36,242 bases of DNA, from NCBI GenBank assembly GCA_017440565.1, contig JAFSHA010000092.1, positions 1 through 36,242 on the forward strand. The letters run 5' to 3'. The notes beneath the pieces are model-generated. The model was given only the letters and a program-made list of their open reading frames with translations, was not told the DNA's origin and searched no databases. The stretch is from Eggerthellaceae bacterium. GTDB lineage: Bacteria > Actinomycetota > Coriobacteriia > Coriobacteriales > Eggerthellaceae. The translations under genes and the position numbers were made by a program. This document shows positions 17,620 through 24,699 of this stretch, piece after piece (positions within the stretch are counted from its first letter, which is position 1; every line of letters starts with the position of its first letter).

Positions 17620-17945
17620 CCCCGTAAACGCACGAACGCCACCGCGGTTCTTGTGCTCGTCGATGGCGACGGCGATGCAGATCTTCTGCTTGGAGAGCCC
17701 GCGCTTGCGCGCCTCGCCATAACCCTTGGAGAGGTCGGTGTCGTTCACGTAAGTCTCGTCGATCCAGATACGGCCCTTGAGCACGATGCGGTCCTGATAG
17801 TCGTCGACGGTGGCGAACACGCGGTGGCGCCACTCCCAGGCGGTCTGATGACTTATCCGGCATATCTCCGCGGCCGCGTCGAGTGGTACGTTGAAGCGCA
17901 TGAGCCTGATGAACTCGACCCAGGTGGGGAGGTCTTTCTTGCAGC
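17620..17945 (-). pseudogene. IS1595-like transposase, middle part (split by insertion)
   Basis: Minus-strand frame reading CKKDLPTWVEFIRLM, then SHQTAWEWRHRVF, IWIDETYVNDTDLSKGYG (first catalytic Asp in WIDET) and GLSKQKICIAVAIDEHKN. This is the DDE-transposase middle region of IS1595/ISXO2-like elements. The 3' side is broken: after HKNR one extra G shifts the frame (a +1 slip restores VAFV), and a stop follows at the edge of the GNAT gene, so the last third is lost. The 5' side stops abruptly at 17945, where an inserted block begins. The missing N-terminal part lies at 24596-24699. Confidence 0.8.
17942..17945. repeat. Target-site duplication, left copy (CAGC)
   Basis: CAGC directly abuts the left tip of the block. 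The second copy is at 24596-24599. One copy is needed for a continuous transposase frame (E-R-C-K-K) across the joint, the other is surplus. Confidence 0.75.
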
Positions 17946-17990
17946 TGATTATTCGCTCGCAAAAGCGACGGCGCTGCCGCGATGGTTCAC
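17946..17990 (+). repeat. Left bipartite terminal inverted repeat
   Basis: TGATTATT at the tip (17946-17953), 24 dissimilar bases, then CGCGATGGTTCAC (17978-17990). The right end, read inward, has the same octamer and CGCGCATGTTCAC at exactly the same offset. TTTCAC and GTCCAC (17999, 18009) and another GTTCAC (18073) follow inward and may be additional transposase sites. Confidence 0.7.
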
Positions 17991-18106
17991 GCCGCCGCTT
18001 TCACTCATGTCCACGGGCTGTGCCAGCTAGGTTAACGCCTTAAATCGACCCACCCATCGTAAACTCACGTATGTTCACGTCGCCCATGCGGCGCTGCCAC
18101 TGAGTT

Positions 18107-18394
18107 TTACGAATCGTCTGACTCTTTCCAGTAAAACTTTATATCGTCGTAGACATCATGACCATCTTCTCCGTAGATGAAGCGCAGCAGGGAGAGAGCG
18201 CCGCGGGTATCGCCCTCTAAAACCTGGCTCCTCCACCTCAAATAGCCAATCTCTTTTTCCAGCCTTTTCTCCTCAGCAGAACCGCGCTCAGCATCAAAAT
18301 ACAGGTTGTCAAGTTTCCCAAGCTCGCATGCGTTGGAGTGCTTTTCGTCAACGAGCTCCTGGACCCTGGCAAGCGCCTCATAATATGTCTTCAT
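18107..18394 (-). CDS. Hypothetical 95-aa acidic helical protein
   Basis: No family recognised. The ATG at 18394 has AGGAGGC at ideal distance, and an in-frame extension further upstream lacks a ribosome site. The sequence begins MKTYYEALARVQELVDEKH and is rich in Glu, Asp and Arg with heptad-like spacing, which suggests a helical hairpin. The end (YDDIKFYWKESDDS) is acidic. No Cys cluster and no membrane segment. It is the leftmost gene of the inserted element, on the same strand as the molybdoenzyme pair but 314 bases downstream, after a hairpin. It could be a cargo accessory protein; nothing suggests a transposase. Confidence 0.6.
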   Translation of the reverse strand: MKTYYEALARVQELVDEKHSNACELGKLDNLYFDAERGSAEEKRLEKEIGYLRWRSQVLEGDTRGALSLLRFIYGEDGHDVYDDIKFYWKESDDS

Positions 18395-18708
18395 ATTTGC
18401 CTCCTGTCGGATCTCGATCTGAGCTGAAACGCGGAATGGCTTTGCAGCGTCATTATTATGGGAGTTGAGGCGCATCGCGAAGGGAGCGCTTCCCGATGAA
18501 GAAGCGAGGCGCCGGGGGGCAAGCTCGGCACGGAAGACTGAGAGATCATAAGTTGCCATGAACACATCTTCGGACTTCGGGCGGTCCTCCCGAAGATCTC
18601 CTCCATAACCTCAGCCTGCGCGGCTTTATTGCGCCATGACGAGCACATACGACTGAAGCCGCCCTTAACGGACGGCTTCAGCAAAGCTCTATGCTGCAGG
18701 GCCTTTAG
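18395..18708. other. Intergenic region inside the element
   Basis: 314 bases without a supported gene. It holds a hairpin just downstream of the ferredoxin gene (18653-18681) and the ribosome site of the 95-aa gene. A short overlapping inverted repeat (ATCTTCGG/CCGAAGAT near 18567-18597) is also present. Frames through it have no ribosome site and no recognisable family. Confidence 0.5.
18653..18681 (-). terminator. Hairpin after the molybdoenzyme operon
   Basis: CTGAAGCCG (18653-18661) and CGGCTTCAG (18673-18681) form a perfect 9-bp stem with an 11-base loop. It lies 28 bases downstream of the ferredoxin stop on the minus strand. There is no clear T-run, so it could be a weak terminator or a 3'-end stabiliser. 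Confidence 0.45.
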
Positions 18709-19047
18709 CTACGGAATCATCAGGTAGGCGCGTTCGCCCTTGGCTTCCATCTTCGCGACAAGCTCGGAAAGAGGGCCGTACTCGAGGGCGTCTGCCAGGC
18801 AGTGGTGCACGCATGCGGGCTTCTGGCCGGCGGCAACGCGATCCGCGCACAGGTCGCACAGCTCGGTGACCATGGGGGTGTAGTTCCAGATGAACTTGTC
18901 CTCCTCCTCGCTCACGCAGAACGGACCGACCTGGTTCAGCTTGATGCCCCACTGACCTGCGGGGATCTCCTTCTCATTCCTGCATGCGATCTCACACGTG
19001 TAGCATCCGGTGCAGTACTGGGTGTCGACGAGCAATCCGTTGATCAT
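18709..19047 (-). CDS. Two-cluster ferredoxin subunit of the molybdoenzyme
   Basis: 112 aa. Electron-transfer partner of the molybdoenzyme encoded just upstream (12-base gap). Cys12, 15, 18 and 22 form C-x2-C-x2-C-x3-C, and Cys64, 67, 79 and 83 form a second set in CDLCADRVAAGQKPACVHHC. This is enough for two [4Fe-4S] clusters, whereas DmsB-type subunits have four clusters in about 200 aa. It is thus a shortened DmsB/PhsB-like protein. There is no signal peptide and no membrane segment, so the complex is probably cytoplasmic. AGGAGGCGATTG precedes the ATG. No membrane anchor gene follows. Confidence 0.88.
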   Translation of the reverse strand: MINGLLVDTQYCTGCYTCEIACRNEKEIPAGQWGIKLNQVGPFCVSEEEDKFIWNYTPMVTELCDLCADRVAAGQKPACVHHCLADALEYGPLSELVAKMEAKGERAYLMIP

Positions 19048-19059
19048 GTCAATCGCCTC

Positions 19060-21291
19060 CTATTCAGCCTTCTCGATGTTGCACATCGCGGACTTGAACG
19101 GCGCGCCGAAGCCGATCTTGCCGATGTCGCCATGGGGAATCATGTTGTTGACGTTGGACTTCCATACGCCGTAGAGGTTCGGCTCGTTCGGATCCTCCTC
19201 GGGGAACCACCAGCCGTGGGCGGCATTCACGACGCCCTTCTTGAGGATGGGCGTGATCTCGACCTTGTAGCGTGCGCTGCCGTGCTCGTTAACGATGCGT
19301 ACCCAGTCGCCTTCCTCGATGCCGTGCTTCTTGGCGTCCGCCGGGTTCATCTCGAGGACGGGGTTGGGATGAATGTCGCGCAGGTTCTTGATCTGGCGAT
19401 GCTCAGAGTGGAAGGACGTCACGCGACGGGAGCCGGTGGTAAGGATGAACTCGTACTCCGGAGTGTTGGAGGGGCTCATCTTCGGCTCAAAGTAATAGGG
19501 CAGCGGATCATCGCCGAGGTTGCGGTACATCGTCGTCCACAGCTCAACGCGGCCAGTCGGGGTGCTGAAGCCCGGCTTGCCGTCGGCGCGCAGCAGGCCC
19601 TTCTCGTACTTCTTGTAGGTAACCGGAACCTGCGCGGTGCCGATGTCGCGCAGCTCGTACCAGTTCTGGGCGCCGCTCATCGCGCCGAGACCGCTCAGAT
19701 AGCCGTGCACGAGCTCGTCAACGGAGGCGGTGTAGATGTCCGGGAAGATCCTTTTCGCGAGCATGAAGCAGATCTCGGGGTCGCTCTTGGCCTCACCGAC
19801 GGTGATTGCCTTGTTGATGGCGGAGCAGTTGGTGGTGTTCGACCCGAAGTGGGTAAACACGACGCCGTCGCCCTCGGCGAAGGTGGCAACGGGAAGGAAC
19901 AGGTCGCCAACCGCCATGATGGTCGGGTTCATGAAGGTGTCGGTAGCGACGACGAAGTCCATCTTCTGAAGCGCCTTGTGCCAACGCGAAGGCTGAGCCG
20001 AGCACGTAGGCGAGATGAGGTTGGAGCTCTGCAGCCAAGCGAAGCGGACCGGATAAGGATCGTCCGTCTCAAGGCACTCGAGGAACAGGTCGGGGTGGAC
20101 CGTGTTCTGAATCATGCCAACGGCGGGATACTTGTCGACGCCGACCTTCTTGGACAGCGCGTCCTCGGGAACCTGCGTCGGGACGTCCTTCTCCTCAGCG
20201 CCGCCGAGGCCGGCAACGGGACCGAGGATGGTGCCACCAGGGATATCAAGGTTGCCGGTGATGGCCATGATTGCCATGAGGGCCTGACCGGTCTGAACGC
20301 CGTTGGGAGCCTCGTCAACGGAGAGACCCCAGGTCATGCTGGACGGGGACTGCGCAAGGGCGCGGCCTGCCTCGATGATCTTCTCGGCGGGAACCTCGGT
20401 GATCTCAGCAACCTTCTCCACGGGGTATTCCTGAACGCGCTCGGCAAGCTGCTCGAAGCCGTAGCACCATTTGTCAACGAAGTCGTGATCATAAAGATCC
20501 TCGTTGATGATGACATTGAGAATGCCCATGGCAAGCGCGGCGTCGGTGCCGGGGCGCAGGCGCAGCGCGAGGTGCGAGCGGGTGGCGAGCCACGTCATGC
20601 GCGGGTCGACGGTGATGAGCTTGGCTCCAAGGCGCATGAGCTCGATGAGCGCGTGGCCGAACAGGCCGTCGGAGTTTGACTTCGGCGGCTCCTTGCCCCA
20701 GACCAGAATGTAGTTGGGCACCTGGAAGGACGGGTCGTCGTAGCGCAGCGGGAAGCCAGCGGCGTAGTCCATTTCGGGAATGCCGGCGCCGGCAACGAAG
20801 TTTACGACGGCGCAGCGGGGGCCGTAGCAGGACCAGCCAGAGAGCGCGTAGCACTGGTTCGGAGACTGAAGAACGCTGTAGCAGCCAAGGGCAGCGTGGA
20901 TGCACGCCGCGCGACCCGTGCCGTTGAAGAGGCAGGATCCCTCGTAGCCGTACTTCTCCTGGTTGGCTTTCAGCGCCTCGGCGAAGATGTCCATCGCCTC
21001 TTCCCAAGAGATGCGCTCCCGCTTGTCGAGGCCGCGGTCTTCCTTCGCGCGCTTCATCGGGTAGATGATGCGATCCTCATGGTAGATGTAGTCCTTCAGC
21101 GACAAGCAGCGAACGCACAGGCGGCCCTTCGTCACGGGGTGCTCGGGATCGCCTTCGACCTTGATCAGTTTGCCGTCCTTCACATGAAGCTTAAGGCCGC
21201 AGCCCACGGGATGGCATCCCGGAGGCGACCATGCGCACGTGCGGACAATCTCCGTACCGTCCTCGAGTGTTTTCTTCCACTCAGCATCCAT
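19060..21291 (-). CDS. Molybdopterin oxidoreductase, acetylene hydratase/dehydroxylase-like clade
   Basis: 743 aa catalytic subunit of the DMSO reductase superfamily, binding bis-MGD with Mo or W and one [4Fe-4S] cluster. Likely cluster ligands are Cys19, Cys26, Cys31 and Cys59 (CAWSPPGCHPVGCG ... GRLCVRC). The likely metal ligand is Cys155 in SGWSCYGPR. TDAALAMGILNVIINEDLYD and KWCYGFEQLAERVQEYPVEK are very close in wording to Pelobacter acetylene hydratase. There is no TAT signal. The C-terminal beta-barrel has LTTGSRRVTSFHSEHRQI and NPADAKKHGIEEGDWVRIV. GTAGAGGAGGAAACGCA precedes the ATG. The substrate is unknown: reduction or hydration of a small organic compound, such as an aromatic hydroxyl, is possible. 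Confidence 0.9.
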   Translation of the reverse strand: MDAEWKKTLEDGTEIVRTCAWSPPGCHPVGCGLKLHVKDGKLIKVEGDPEHPVTKGRLCVRCLSLKDYIYHEDRIIYPMKRAKEDRGLDKRERISWEEAMDIFAEALKANQEKYGYEGSCLFNGTGRAACIHAALGCYSVLQSPNQCYALSGWSCYGPRCAVVNFVAGAGIPEMDYAAGFPLRYDDPSFQVPNYILVWGKEPPKSNSDGLFGHALIELMRLGAKLITVDPRMTWLATRSHLALRLRPGTDAALAMGILNVIINEDLYDHDFVDKWCYGFEQLAERVQEYPVEKVAEITEVPAEKIIEAGRALAQSPSSMTWGLSVDEAPNGVQTGQALMAIMAITGNLDIPGGTILGPVAGLGGAEEKDVPTQVPEDALSKKVGVDKYPAVGMIQNTVHPDLFLECLETDDPYPVRFAWLQSSNLISPTCSAQPSRWHKALQKMDFVVATDTFMNPTIMAVGDLFLPVATFAEGDGVVFTHFGSNTTNCSAINKAITVGEAKSDPEICFMLAKRIFPDIYTASVDELVHGYLSGLGAMSGAQNWYELRDIGTAQVPVTYKKYEKGLLRADGKPGFSTPTGRVELWTTMYRNLGDDPLPYYFEPKMSPSNTPEYEFILTTGSRRVTSFHSEHRQIKNLRDIHPNPVLEMNPADAKKHGIEEGDWVRIVNEHGSARYKVEITPILKKGVVNAAHGWWFPEEDPNEPNLYGVWKSNVNNMIPHGDIGKIGFGAPFKSAMCNIEKAE

Positions 21292-21366
21292 TGCGTTTCC
21301 TCCTCTACTTTCAACTGTCTGAGATTGCGCGAGTTGCGGGGTTCGGCGCTATCTCGAAGCGAATCG

Positions 21367-21372
21367 AATGTA
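21367..21372 (-). promoter_or_regulatory. Possible -10 box of the molybdoenzyme operon
   Basis: TACATT on the minus strand, about 75 bases upstream of the ATG. The -35 at 17-bp spacing is GGCTCA, far from consensus, which would suit a promoter that needs an activator. The palindrome at 21426-21450 would be centred about 78 bases upstream of the predicted start. Confidence 0.4.
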
Positions 21373-21409
21373 GCGAGGAGCTGGGAGGTTGAGCCACGGG
21401 GCGAGAACC

Positions 21410-21427
21410 CTATTTTGCAGAAAATAG
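21410..21427. repeat. A/T-rich inverted repeat beside the palindrome
   Basis: CTATTTT, GCAG, AAAATAG: perfect 7-bp arms, overlapping by two bases the palindrome at 21426-21450. On the minus strand it supplies the T-rich tract after that GC-rich stem. Confidence 0.5.
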
Positions 21428-21450
21428 CCCCATACCAATGGTATGGGGCT
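21426..21450. promoter_or_regulatory. Palindromic candidate operator or luxR terminator
   Basis: AGCCCCATACC-AAT-GGTATGGGGCT: perfect 11-bp arms. The core CATACCAATGGTATGGG matches 15 of 17 bases of the site at 23037-23053 upstream of luxR. On the minus strand the stem is followed by TATTTTC, so it could also end luxR transcription. Both roles may apply. Confidence 0.6.
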
Positions 21451-21480
21451 TTGGTACGCGGCCTTTTATCAGGTATTTCG

Positions 21481-22986
21481 CTATCCCGCTCTATTTGGCG
21501 GGTTCTTCAGTTCGTCCACCATGTCTATGAGGGCCTGCTGGGAGCTCACTCCAAGCTTCTTATATATGTTGTAGATATGGGACTTCGTAGTGGACGGCCC
21601 GATGTAAAGCTCTCCCTGAATGTGCTTATTGTTGCGTCCCTTCGCCAAAAGAACGAACACTTCCTTCTCTCGGTTGGTGAGCATGTGCCTGTCAGCCACC
21701 TGCTCGCAGCGCTCCCTGAAATGCGCCGCGGGAACGATCTCTCGGATCTCATTGACGCTAACCGACTCAATGAGATCCGAGAGGTACCTTCGGGCAAGTT
21801 CGTCATCGGCGCCGTACGCCGCGAACGCCATGACGATGACCATGACGAGTCCGGCAACGGCCATCGCAAAGAAATTGTTATGGGCCTGGAACGCACTCGC
21901 CTCGTATACCGCCACGCCGATCCCCATCCCGATGATGAACCCGATCCAGTCGGCGATCTGCCGATACGCGAAGCGGCGGACGGGGTGGAGTTGGTTCTCG
22001 AGATTATCGACAATCGAGAAAACCCAAAACATCATCTGAGAATGCGATATCGACACCATGACGAGAGCCGAGCACAGCACCTTCCAGACGTCGCCGCCGA
22101 AGGGAAGCAGCGCAATGCCCGCAATCATGGGAACCATGGACACGCGCTGGACCACGCCCTGGGTCACCTCCGACTTCGGGAACCGCACCACCCAGAACAG
22201 GGCTATCAGATCGCCGATGGTGCCGAGCGAGAACCCCGCCACCGTCATGACGGGCCCCATGCCGCAAAGTACGACTGTCACGAATCCGAACGCAATGCCC
22301 TGAGCAACCATGAAGAGCTCGTTGGGAAGCGAGGAGAGGGGGATCTTGCGCGTTTCGTCCGCGTAATGGACGACGCGCCTCCGAGGTTGGCGCATTGAGG
22401 CGAACCATGCTGAGGCAATGGCGAGAACGGTAACCACAAACGCTTCGCCCAGGAAAACAAGGTCGTTTAGCTGCAGGCCGACGGCGACGAATAGCAGTGT
22501 TGCCGGCAGCGTTCCGCCAGCAACAGAGAGCATGGATCGCCTCGATCCGGTGTTGGAGAACAGGATGATCTGGAGGAGCGTCAGACACCCGAACCCCACG
22601 CCGAAAACCATCCACGCCGCAAGATGCACCCAAAGGGGAAGAGGGCCCGCAAATTGAGACCACAGGCAGACGGCAAACGCAGGAAGCATGCACAAGGTAG
22701 CCGGGACGAGCCTTCTTTTGTATTCGTCCATGATCGAAGAAGCCTTGAAATAAGAGGCTGCCAGAACGGCGACGCAGACCGCAACAGACGCTATTCGGCA
22801 CAGAAACGCATCCGGAACCGAAAGGTGGGCAAACAAGGGGAAGGCCGGCCCGCCTGAAAAAATGAGCAAGACGGTCATGTAGCACGCAAACCCTATCCCT
22901 CCGAGAAACAGAGCCGTCATCTCCTCGCCGCCAGCACCATGCGCGGCCTTCGCTTCTTGCGGTTCGAGCGATGCGTTTTCCAACAT
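21481..22986 (-). CDS. LuxR-type regulator with multi-pass membrane domain
   Basis: 501 aa. About 12 hydrophobic segments, with an MFS-like look, occupy residues 20-415. A GerE/LuxR helix-turn-helix closes the protein: LTNREKEVFVLLAKGRNNKHI, then STTKSHIYNIYKKLGVSSQQ. This architecture is abundant in Eggerthellaceae, often beside molybdoenzymes, and suggests a membrane sensor that acts directly on DNA. The ATG at 22986 has AGGAGG at good distance; the open frame continues upstream through the operator and has no ribosome site there. Same strand as and upstream of the molybdoenzyme operon, divergent from the four-helix protein gene. Confidence 0.88.
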   Translation of the reverse strand: MLENASLEPQEAKAAHGAGGEEMTALFLGGIGFACYMTVLLIFSGGPAFPLFAHLSVPDAFLCRIASVAVCVAVLAASYFKASSIMDEYKRRLVPATLCMLPAFAVCLWSQFAGPLPLWVHLAAWMVFGVGFGCLTLLQIILFSNTGSRRSMLSVAGGTLPATLLFVAVGLQLNDLVFLGEAFVVTVLAIASAWFASMRQPRRRVVHYADETRKIPLSSLPNELFMVAQGIAFGFVTVVLCGMGPVMTVAGFSLGTIGDLIALFWVVRFPKSEVTQGVVQRVSMVPMIAGIALLPFGGDVWKVLCSALVMVSISHSQMMFWVFSIVDNLENQLHPVRRFAYRQIADWIGFIIGMGIGVAVYEASAFQAHNNFFAMAVAGLVMVIVMAFAAYGADDELARRYLSDLIESVSVNEIREIVPAAHFRERCEQVADRHMLTNREKEVFVLLAKGRNNKHIQGELYIGPSTTKSHIYNIYKKLGVSSQQALIDMVDELKNPPNRAG

Positions 22987-23036
22987 GAAAAACCTCCTGA
23001 AGTTGCAGAAAAAACAAGTTGTCTCACCTGCGGTTT

Positions 23037-23053
23037 CATACCAACAGTATGGG
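23037..23053. promoter_or_regulatory. Candidate LuxR operator, second copy
   Basis: CATACCAACAGTATGGG, a near match to CATACCAATGGTATGGG at 21431-21447 and itself partly palindromic (CATAC...GTATG). It lies 51 bases upstream of luxR and 160 bases upstream of the divergent gene at 23213, so it could control both. Confidence 0.55.
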
Positions 23054-23212
23054 AAGAAATGAAGGCTTGCTCGGGGTTTCATTCCGTCACCCCGTTGCCC
23101 GATCTCGCCTCCGAAACTACCCTCCTCCTGAAGCGTAATGCGGGATTCTACACGTGAAGACAACTCGAGGCAACCGGAACTATTCGTGTCGATTTGAGGA
23201 GGAAAAGCAGCT

Positions 23213-23659
23213 ATGCCGAGCAAGAAATACCTTATCGCCTACACGGTTGTGATGTCTGTCATCATGTGCGTCGTGTGCGCAGCGATCATCCCCATCCTTT
23301 CGGGGCAGGTTCTCACGCCGACGACGTGGGTCGTCGGATTCGGGCTGACCTTCGTCATCTCGGTCATCCTCAGCCTCGTTATCCCAATGGGGAAAATCGG
23401 GGGTGCCGTATGCGGCGTTTTCGGAACGACCCCCGATGCCGGGTTGGGCCGCCTGTTGATGGACGTGATCTCCACGACCATCATCGGAGGCTTCATGGTC
23501 GCCTTCATGACCGGGTTCTCGACGGGACTGGGAAGCCTCGGCGACGTCAACTACGTCACGCGCGCCCTGAGCTCCGTCATTGAGGCCTGGGGTCCCATGT
23601 TCGTCACCGTGGTTTTGTCGGATGCCATCGCGACGGCAATTTGCAGGAAGATCGCTTAA
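23213..23659 (+). CDS. Small four-helix membrane protein
   Basis: 148 aa with four hydrophobic segments, at about residues 6-30, 40-60, 84-106 and 124-143. The two halves look like a tandem repeat of a two-helix unit (MSVIMCVVCAAIIPIL... and ISTTIIGGFMVAFMTGF..., each followed by a Trp-containing second helix). The style recalls DUF2798 small membrane proteins. I infer this from pattern only and could not search. GAGGAGGAAAAGCAGCT precedes the ATG. It is divergent from luxR and heads a row of three genes with the Cys-rich proteins. The function is unknown; it might help sense or move the molybdoenzyme substrate. Confidence 0.7.
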   Translation: MPSKKYLIAYTVVMSVIMCVVCAAIIPILSGQVLTPTTWVVGFGLTFVISVILSLVIPMGKIGGAVCGVFGTTPDAGLGRLLMDVISTTIIGGFMVAFMTGFSTGLGSLGDVNYVTRALSSVIEAWGPMFVTVVLSDAIATAICRKIA

Positions 23660-23674
23660 AAGCAAGGAGTAGAC

Positions 23675-23890
23675 ATGTGCTTTAGACCGCCAACGACGTA
23701 CTCAACGAGAAAGTGCCCCCAGTGCGCCGCCGACTGCGGCCAGTTCGACGCCGTATGCGACAAGTGCGGCGCGGCGTTGCCCGAGGAAAGCGGAGACCTG
23801 GCGGCCCCCGGCATTCCCGCGGCCCCCGGAGCGCCTGGCGCTCCCGCAGCCCCAGGAATGCCCAAGCCCCCCGGAGCGCCGAGCCTCTAG
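23675..23890 (+). CDS. Zinc-ribbon protein with Pro-Gly-Ala tail
   Basis: 71 aa. The first half begins MCFRPPTTY and has CPQCAADCGQFDAVCDKCG, a C-x2-C...C-x2-C zinc ribbon. The second half is a low-complexity collagen-like tail of repeated PGAP/PGMP units ending at GAPSL. AAGCAAGGAG precedes the ATG, 15 bases after the previous gene, so they are co-transcribed. I have the impression that related MCFRPP zinc ribbons occur in Eggerthellaceae but know no function. With its neighbour at 23968 it forms a pair of metal-binding small proteins inside the mobile block. Confidence 0.75.
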   Translation: MCFRPPTTYSTRKCPQCAADCGQFDAVCDKCGAALPEESGDLAAPGIPAAPGAPGAPAAPGMPKPPGAPSL

Positions 23891-23967
23891 CGTTTCGGGA
23901 ACGCGCGGAGAGGTCCCCGACTTACCGCTGGTAGCCCTCTCCGCGCGTCGCGACCAAAGGAGGGAGC

Positions 23968-24162
23968 ATGTGCTATCCCTGCACCCACTGCGACCGTTGC
24001 CGAAGCCATGTCAAGGACGGCGTCTGCTTTAACTGCACGAAACCCCTGCCCAGCGAAAGCGATGCGTGCCCTCATTGCGGCGCAGCTCTGCCGCCTAAGC
24101 CCGGAATGCCCGCGGGGATGAAGCCTCATCGCCCGAAGGGCGGCAAGTCTGGCCCTTCCTGA
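23968..24162 (+). CDS. Cysteine-rich zinc-ribbon protein
   Basis: 64 aa with nine Cys. It begins MCYPCTHCDRCRSH, continues GVCFNCTKPLP and DACPHCGAALPP, and ends in a Pro/Lys-rich tail. The two C-x2-C pairs CFNC and CPHC form a ribbon like that of the preceding protein, and the MCY- start parallels its MCF-. The CTHCDRC cluster at the N-terminus is extra. GGAGGGAGC lies just before the ATG. It is probably a diverged duplicate of the gene at 23675. Metal binding is likely; the role is unknown. Confidence 0.7.
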   Translation: MCYPCTHCDRCRSHVKDGVCFNCTKPLPSESDACPHCGAALPPKPGMPAGMKPHRPKGGKSGPS

Positions 24163-24587
24163 CACGACGTCCTGGCGCCGTCGCCTTCTTCCGGACAAGC
24201 CAATCAACGGCCTGGCCGCAAGCCAGATCGAGAGGCAATTGGCAAAGAGGATTCGTGGAAGGCATGGCGAAAGCCGGCGAAGGAGGCGGGATTCCCCCTT
24301 GTGGCTAGGGGCAAGCCCATATCCATCACCCACGACGGCGAGGAGCTCCTCGCCGTCGCATCGCGCATGTTCGGGGATATGGACTCCGTCATCTCCAAAT
24401 GTCGGAAGAGCAGCAAGCGGCAGAGCGGTGGGGTCCCGCATGCGCCTAGCCGACTCACGGCGCCCCAAGGCGAAAACTCGAACGTCGAGCATGCGAACAT
24501 TGCCGACAACGCGCACTGGGCGGACAGCGTGAACGAACCTGAAAACGAGTGTGAACATGCGCGCAATCGGAGTGCGAAATCAACGAC
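24163..24587. other. Right part of the element, possible antitoxin remnant
   Basis: No intact gene. The plus-strand frame from about 24280 reads LVARGKPISITHDGEELLAV followed by ASRMFGDMDSV, which resembles the strand-turn-strand and following helix of Phd/YefM antitoxins. It lacks a good start and ribosome site and continues into nonsense, so I regard it as a remnant at best. A perfect 26-bp palindrome lies in the same stretch. Confidence 0.3.
24333..24358. repeat. Perfect 26-bp palindrome without loop
   Basis: CGACGGCGAGGAG is directly followed by its exact reverse complement CTCCTCGCCGTCG. There is no T-run. It lies about 237 bases inside the right end of the element and coincides with the DGEELLAV codons of the antitoxin-like frame. 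Confidence 0.7.
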
Positions 24588-24595
24588 AATAATCA
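24551..24595 (-). repeat. Right bipartite terminal inverted repeat
   Basis: Read inward from 24595 on the minus strand: TGATTATT (24595-24588), 24 dissimilar bases, then CGCGCATGTTCAC (24563-24551). Octamer and GTTCAC offsets equal those of the left end. A second inward GTTCAC is at 24534-24529. Confidence 0.7.
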
Positions 24596-24599
24596 CAGC
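24596..24599. repeat. Target-site duplication, right copy (CAGC)
   Basis: CAGC directly after the right tip AATAATCA; identical to 17942-17945. Confidence 0.75.
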
Positions 24600-24699
24600 G
24601 CTCCAGCACGGTTCCCGTCAGCGAGTTGAACCTGGTTCCGCAGCTGCGACAGCGGTACCTTTGCAGTCCCGACGAGCCGCCGGAAGGGGTTTTCCTTGG
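24596..24699 (-). pseudogene. IS1595-like transposase, N-terminal zinc-ribbon part
   Basis: Minus-strand frame with GLQRYRCRSCGTRFNSLTG then TVLER, the N-terminal zinc ribbon of IS1595-type transposases (second Cys pair visible). The frame is cut at 24596 after the codons for L-E-R, exactly where the middle part at 17945 resumes with C-K-K. Upstream it meets a stop at 24700-24702 and runs into the 3' end of the MFS gene, so the first Cys pair is lost. The IS copy was therefore already truncated at both ends, or decayed later. Confidence 0.7.

Follow-up and report, generated by a model that had tools for sequence, protein, structure and literature searches.

How did the genes of a molybdoenzyme unit come to lie inside a transposase gene, and what carried them there? 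The question arises from contig C25 of a draft Eggerthellaceae genome (2.41 Mb, 172 contigs); the whole contig, 36,242 nt, is called the window here. The Eggerthellaceae stand out for their extensive and varying complements of molybdenum and flavin reductases, some of which have dopamine, catechins, or further dietary or drug compounds as substrates (PMC9734109, PMC11887054), and little is known about the movement of such reductase gene sets between loci.

The preliminary description had proposed that a transposase frame is interrupted by a block with CAGC on both sides, and that excision of the block with one CAGC gives an open, in-frame joint. Direct reading of the sequence confirmed the interruption. 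The block spans 17946-24595 (6,650 bp) and lies inside an IS1595-family transposase remnant, with a CAGC duplication on either side (Table 1); TTCTTGCAGC meets TGATTATTCGCT at the left junction, and CGACAATAATCA meets CAGCGCTCCA at the right junction. When the flanks were joined with a single CAGC, the frame was open, reading GLQRYRCRSCGTRFNSLTGTVLER-CKKDLPTWVEF, and the reconstructed minus strand, with the block and one CAGC taken out, remained open through NSLTGTVLERCKKDLPTWVEF, which bears out the second part of the proposal.

Table 1. Coordinates in the window of the block, its ends, its target gene, and its passenger genes.
Feature	Position	Strand	Basis
Target: 3' part of IS1595-family transposase remnant	17632..17945	-	alignment to relatives' copies, plasmid records
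CAGC, left copy of target-site duplication	17942..17945		sequence read directly
Left terminal inverted repeat TGATTATT	17946..17953		sequence read directly
Conserved left end	17946..18037		recurs on C88 (80%) and C149 (86%)
152-aa ORF, no family match	18107..18565	-	ORF list, family search
4Fe-4S ferredoxin-like electron-transfer subunit, 112 aa, DmsB-like	18709..19047	-	family search
Molybdopterin oxidoreductase, 743 aa	19060..21291	-	family search; best solved relative acetylene hydratase 2e7z
LuxR-type regulator, 501 aa, about 12 predicted N-terminal TM segments, C-terminal GerE	21481..22986	-	family search, hydropathy
148-aa membrane protein, about 4 TM segments, no family match	23213..23659	+	family search, hydropathy
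71-aa Cys-rich zinc-ribbon-like protein	23675..23890	+	relatives near MoE operons in G004, G050, G094
64-aa Cys-rich zinc-ribbon-like protein	23968..24162	+	sequence
Internal fragment of decayed LysR regulator gene	24279..24439	+	88% to intact LysR gene on C37
Conserved right end	24422..24595		87% to C37:470-644, homology ends at tip
Right terminal inverted repeat AATAATCA	24588..24595		sequence read directly
CAGC, right copy of target-site duplication	24596..24599		sequence read directly
Target: 5' part (zinc ribbon) of IS1595-family transposase remnant	24596..24672	-	alignment to relatives' copies

The empty site was found in relatives. In a protein search of 138 family genomes, intact IS1595-type transposases spanned the joint with no gap there, and the restored frame had amino acid identities of 80% to that of G048 (a 373-aa open frame), 79% to that of G001, and 72% to that of G078. 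At the DNA level, the empty site was 80% identical to G048 over 388 bp, with the joint within a gap-free stretch. The family name IS1595 for the target gene was taken from plasmid records. Homology of the target gene to intact copies was confined to about 24672 to 17632; both of its ends are therefore missing irrespective of the insertion, and the gene was already a remnant. Three independent lines support the earlier proposal that the block transposed as a unit: the gap-free empty site, the recurrence of both ends elsewhere in this genome with other surroundings, and end structures that reach well beyond the tips. We conclude that the block inserted as one unit into the IS1595-family remnant with a 4-bp duplication, a point on which we have hardly any doubt. 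In one relative, contig C1 of G123 held at least 14 IS1595-type copies of equal score, pointing to a recent burst.

Family searches and the sequence itself upheld the earlier list of passengers: a molybdoenzyme, a ferredoxin, a regulator, a membrane protein, and two Cys-rich proteins, all unrelated to transposition. The enzyme belongs to the DMSO-reductase superfamily and has a ferredoxin-like partner. Its best match in the PDB was acetylene hydratase (2e7z, E 1.5e-78), and it appears to be acetylene-hydratase-like in the sense of being closest among solved structures; its Fe-S loop is spaced differently, and by eye the residue at the position of the catalytic Asp seems unconserved. The LuxR-type regulator, with a GerE domain at residues 435-490 and about 12 hydrophobic segments judged by hydropathy only, fits the Coriobacteriia architecture of 10-12 N-terminal TM helices and a C-terminal LuxR HTH. 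In E. lenta, DadR, HcdR, and CadR activate molybdoenzyme genes (PMC9734109), and by analogy with them the regulator of the block is probably an inducer-responsive activator. The cargo genes were open and undamaged by inspection, and together they look like a complete regulated unit of regulator, molybdoenzyme, ferredoxin, small membrane protein, and two zinc-ribbon-like proteins. Molybdoenzyme-ferredoxin (MoE-ferredoxin) pairs are frequent in the family, often in tandem and with about 50% amino acid identity to the pair of the block, and some of them have the small Cys-rich protein as a neighbour. The module itself is thus ordinary for the family; what is unusual is its packaging. A tandem array of several such pairs on contig C41 of G000 (L196:1-19900) had 43-50% amino acid identity to the window enzyme, with some members truncated.

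The packaging was examined at the ends of the block. The tips TGATTATT and AATAATCA form perfect 8-bp inverted repeats (8/8) with TG...CA termini, and inside them both ends carry multiple subterminal direct repeats with a best-fit period of 23 bp. TTCAC-like sites were located at offsets 40, 64, and 86 in the left end (17986, 18010, and 18032) and, running leftward, at offsets 17, 40, and 62 from the tip in the right end (24578, 24555, and 24533). The repeat score was not reached in 5000 shuffles or in 3000 random window pairs, with a TTCAC core picked after viewing the ends; among single ends, a simple lag test gave significance for the copy on contig C37 alone, whose right end has TTCAC-like sites at offsets 17, 40, and 63.

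Copies of the ends with different flanks, which the preliminary description had suggested looking for, were found in the genome itself. With the right end as query, C37:470-644 was recovered at 87% together with a short second match, and full comparison with C37 gave just two matches, 469-644 against 24596-24422 and 1337-1497 against 24439-24279. The first halts at the tip, the single extra base outside it being a chance identity. The second lies within an intact LysR gene (C37 717-1796), and therefore the window keeps an internal LysR fragment beside its right end. Farther inward on C37 is a flavin-reductase-like gene, cut off near 2915; at L004:1879-3512, the reading frame of this cut gene carries on into that of a TetR-like regulator. 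Two further contigs have copies of the left end: the one on C88, at 80%, begins at the tip region and has the tip TGAATATT, and the one on C149, at 86%, matches from position 26 and has lost the tip. Both copies lead inward into the same ABC-F gene end, where the contigs stop, as contigs do at repeats not spanned by short reads; this suggests a repeated, ABC-F-bearing relative of the element. The break lies in the first ~258 bp of both contigs (L054 for C149, L055 for C88), inside this Msr-like ABC-F gene beside the left end. Reading the left-end motif of C88 and C149 as protein-coding was rejected, as the similarity runs on beyond the stop codon. The genes that adjoin the recurrent ends thus differ, LysR and a truncated flavin reductase on C37 and ABC-F on C88 and C149. 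The end copies on the three contigs independently support the tip boundaries; we conjecture that the right end on C37 and the left ends on C88 and C149 are halves of one element.

Beyond this genome, the ends were not recovered from the collections searched. Right-end DNA matched only the source genome among 138 family genomes and phage and plasmid records; left-end DNA likewise matched only the source genome among the 138 family genomes, the remaining matches being ABC-F coding sequence, and nothing among plasmids. The exact tip pattern occurred only in the source genome among 119 family genomes and was absent from viral contigs. It gave four single matches elsewhere in 398 class genomes, which we judged to be chance since they were unpaired and had no repeats, and three in genome_contigs, about the chance number by a rough estimate of a few, one of them in Nitrospirota with no transposase nearby.

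No transposase was recognisable among the annotated ORFs of the block, of which the 152-aa and 148-aa ORFs matched no family, and neither istA nor istB was among them. In the assembled source genome, PF00665 gave a single match, an IS3-type element on C22, with no second rve-type transposase, and NF033546 gave one weak match and no clear IS21 transposase; so the helper transposase either sits in unassembled repeats or was lost. An autonomous element with these tips was not found in the family, class, or wider genomes searched. IS21 elements are nevertheless common in the class (103 of 398 genomes above the cut-off). An automatic end-finder was applied to 60 IS21 loci and yielded usable ends at about nine; the remaining pairs were chance-like and left out. 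Those class elements whose ends were definable share TG...CA tips, repeats at a spacing of 22-24 bp, and target duplications 4-8 bp long, including the 4-bp ACCA and GGCC, and several carry TTCAC cores at the same spacing as the block ends (positions 5/28/51 in L137, 28/50/73 in L157, and 21/44/67 in L165). IstA depends on a pair of complete direct repeats at each end, together with a terminal CA (PMC10122671). From these shared tips, spacings, and duplications and this requirement, we infer that the ends of the block are probably IS21-type and that the cassette was rather likely mobilised in trans. The block lacks istA and istB; hence, it would have IS21-type ends without being an IS21 element.

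Other origins were weighed against this assignment. Chance or an assembly artefact, with two unrelated breaks mimicking an insertion, might be considered for a draft of 172 contigs, but the perfect tips, the duplication, the gap-free restored gene, and the recurrence of the ends at other loci make it practically negligible, and we rejected a chimeric assembly. The mobiliser might instead have been a transposase of IS3 or another TG...CA family. IS3 elements have TG...CA termini with 3-5-bp duplications, and an IS3/IS150-like element is present on C22 of the same genome; however, neither block tip was found in the C22 locus, and repeated motifs spaced by 23 bp are, to our knowledge, not an IS3 feature. 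This origin is very improbable, and IS3 was rejected as the mobiliser. The IS3/IS150-like element on C22 (L008) adjoins a different ABC-F gene.

Membership in a Tn7-, Tn402-, or Mu-like group, whose transposases likewise bind spaced terminal repeats, is more serious though still unlikely. These groups produce 5-bp duplications, against the 4 bp of the block, and no second rve-type transposase was found in the source genome. TG...CA tips with multiple spaced repeats are common to Mu, Tn7, and IS21 (PMC10122671), yet the period of 23 with TTCAC cores is matched by class IS21 elements. It is also possible, if somewhat doubtful, that the block is what decay has left of a larger cargo transposon, once self-sufficient, that lost its own transposase, instead of a cassette moved in trans. 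A truncated LysR gene abuts the right end, and on C88 and C149 an ABC-F gene directly follows the left end inward, where the contigs break off, so larger relatives exist, their interiors unseen. Against decay, the present block has a perfect 4-bp duplication and 8/8 tips; a loss after insertion is conceivable, though indistinguishable here from one before it.

In our view, the block is probably a non-autonomous transposon with IS21-type ends and belongs among the mobile insertion cassettes (MICs). MICs were first described in Bacillus cereus. They carry no transposase and are mobilised in trans (PMC3281130, PMC3129680, PMC4444841). Like them, the block combines IS-type ends, a target duplication, and passenger genes without a transposase (PMC3281130, PMC3129680, PMC4444841); unlike them, it probably has IS21-type ends, and it carries, in 6.65 kb, a regulated molybdoenzyme unit of several genes instead of just one gene, as with qnrS2 (PMC4444841). 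As for the ends of an autonomous IS, its end architecture matches class IS21 elements, but no autonomous element with the same tip sequences was found. With the IS21 family, it shares TG...CA tips, subterminal direct repeats (period 23, TTCAC-like), and a 4-bp duplication within the class range of 4-8 bp (PMC10122671), but it has neither istA nor istB and measures 6.65 kb against about 2.4-2.6 kb. Transporter ISs (tIS) also join IS ends to passenger genes (PMC3129680, PMC9330008), but they keep a transposase, which the block lacks. The Eggerthellaceae loci with DadR, HcdR, and CadR (10-12-TM LuxR) have the same regulator architecture beside a molybdoenzyme (PMC9734109), whereas the enzyme of the block has acetylene hydratase as its nearest solved structure and lies between transposon ends; in other genomes, its relatives, at about 50% amino acid identity, stand in tandem MoE-ferredoxin arrays. 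The earlier statement that no transposon of this kind had been described holds for this pairing of ends and cargo, as far as a limited search of the literature without most subscription papers goes, but not for MICs, which were already described. In that search, neither a MIC with IS21-type ends or molybdoenzyme-type cargo nor a Coriobacteriia mobile element with dehydroxylases was found.

For such an IS21-ended cassette, an IstA/IstB pair from a related IS21 element, supplied in trans, would have bound to the repeats of the two ends, brought the ends together in a synapse, cut them, and then inserted the cassette into the IS1595 remnant. Cargo may have been exchanged between common ends, the right end still holding a fragment of the LysR gene that is intact beside the C37 copy. 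Tentatively, the Eggerthellaceae might harbour an IS21-type cassette family in which common ends shuttle exchangeable redox-enzyme modules; the modules conceivably include molybdoenzyme with regulator, LysR with flavin reductase, and ABC-F. If so, the large, strain-variable reductase repertoire would owe its make-up in part to helper-dependent transposition.

Here, a regulated molybdoenzyme unit is seen as an exact insertion, proven by the empty site, and its ends also adjoin other genes in the same genome. With IS21-like end architecture but no recognisable transposase, the block suggests that helper-moved cassettes could spread redox enzymes in these gut-type actinobacteria. The tips and the 23-bp repeat signature provide a concrete probe for similar cassettes. 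Within the sample of class IS21 elements, the tips nearest to those of C88 were TGAATATT/TGCGTATT, on an element with a 5-bp duplication (L143:1546-4174, contig C7 of G045).
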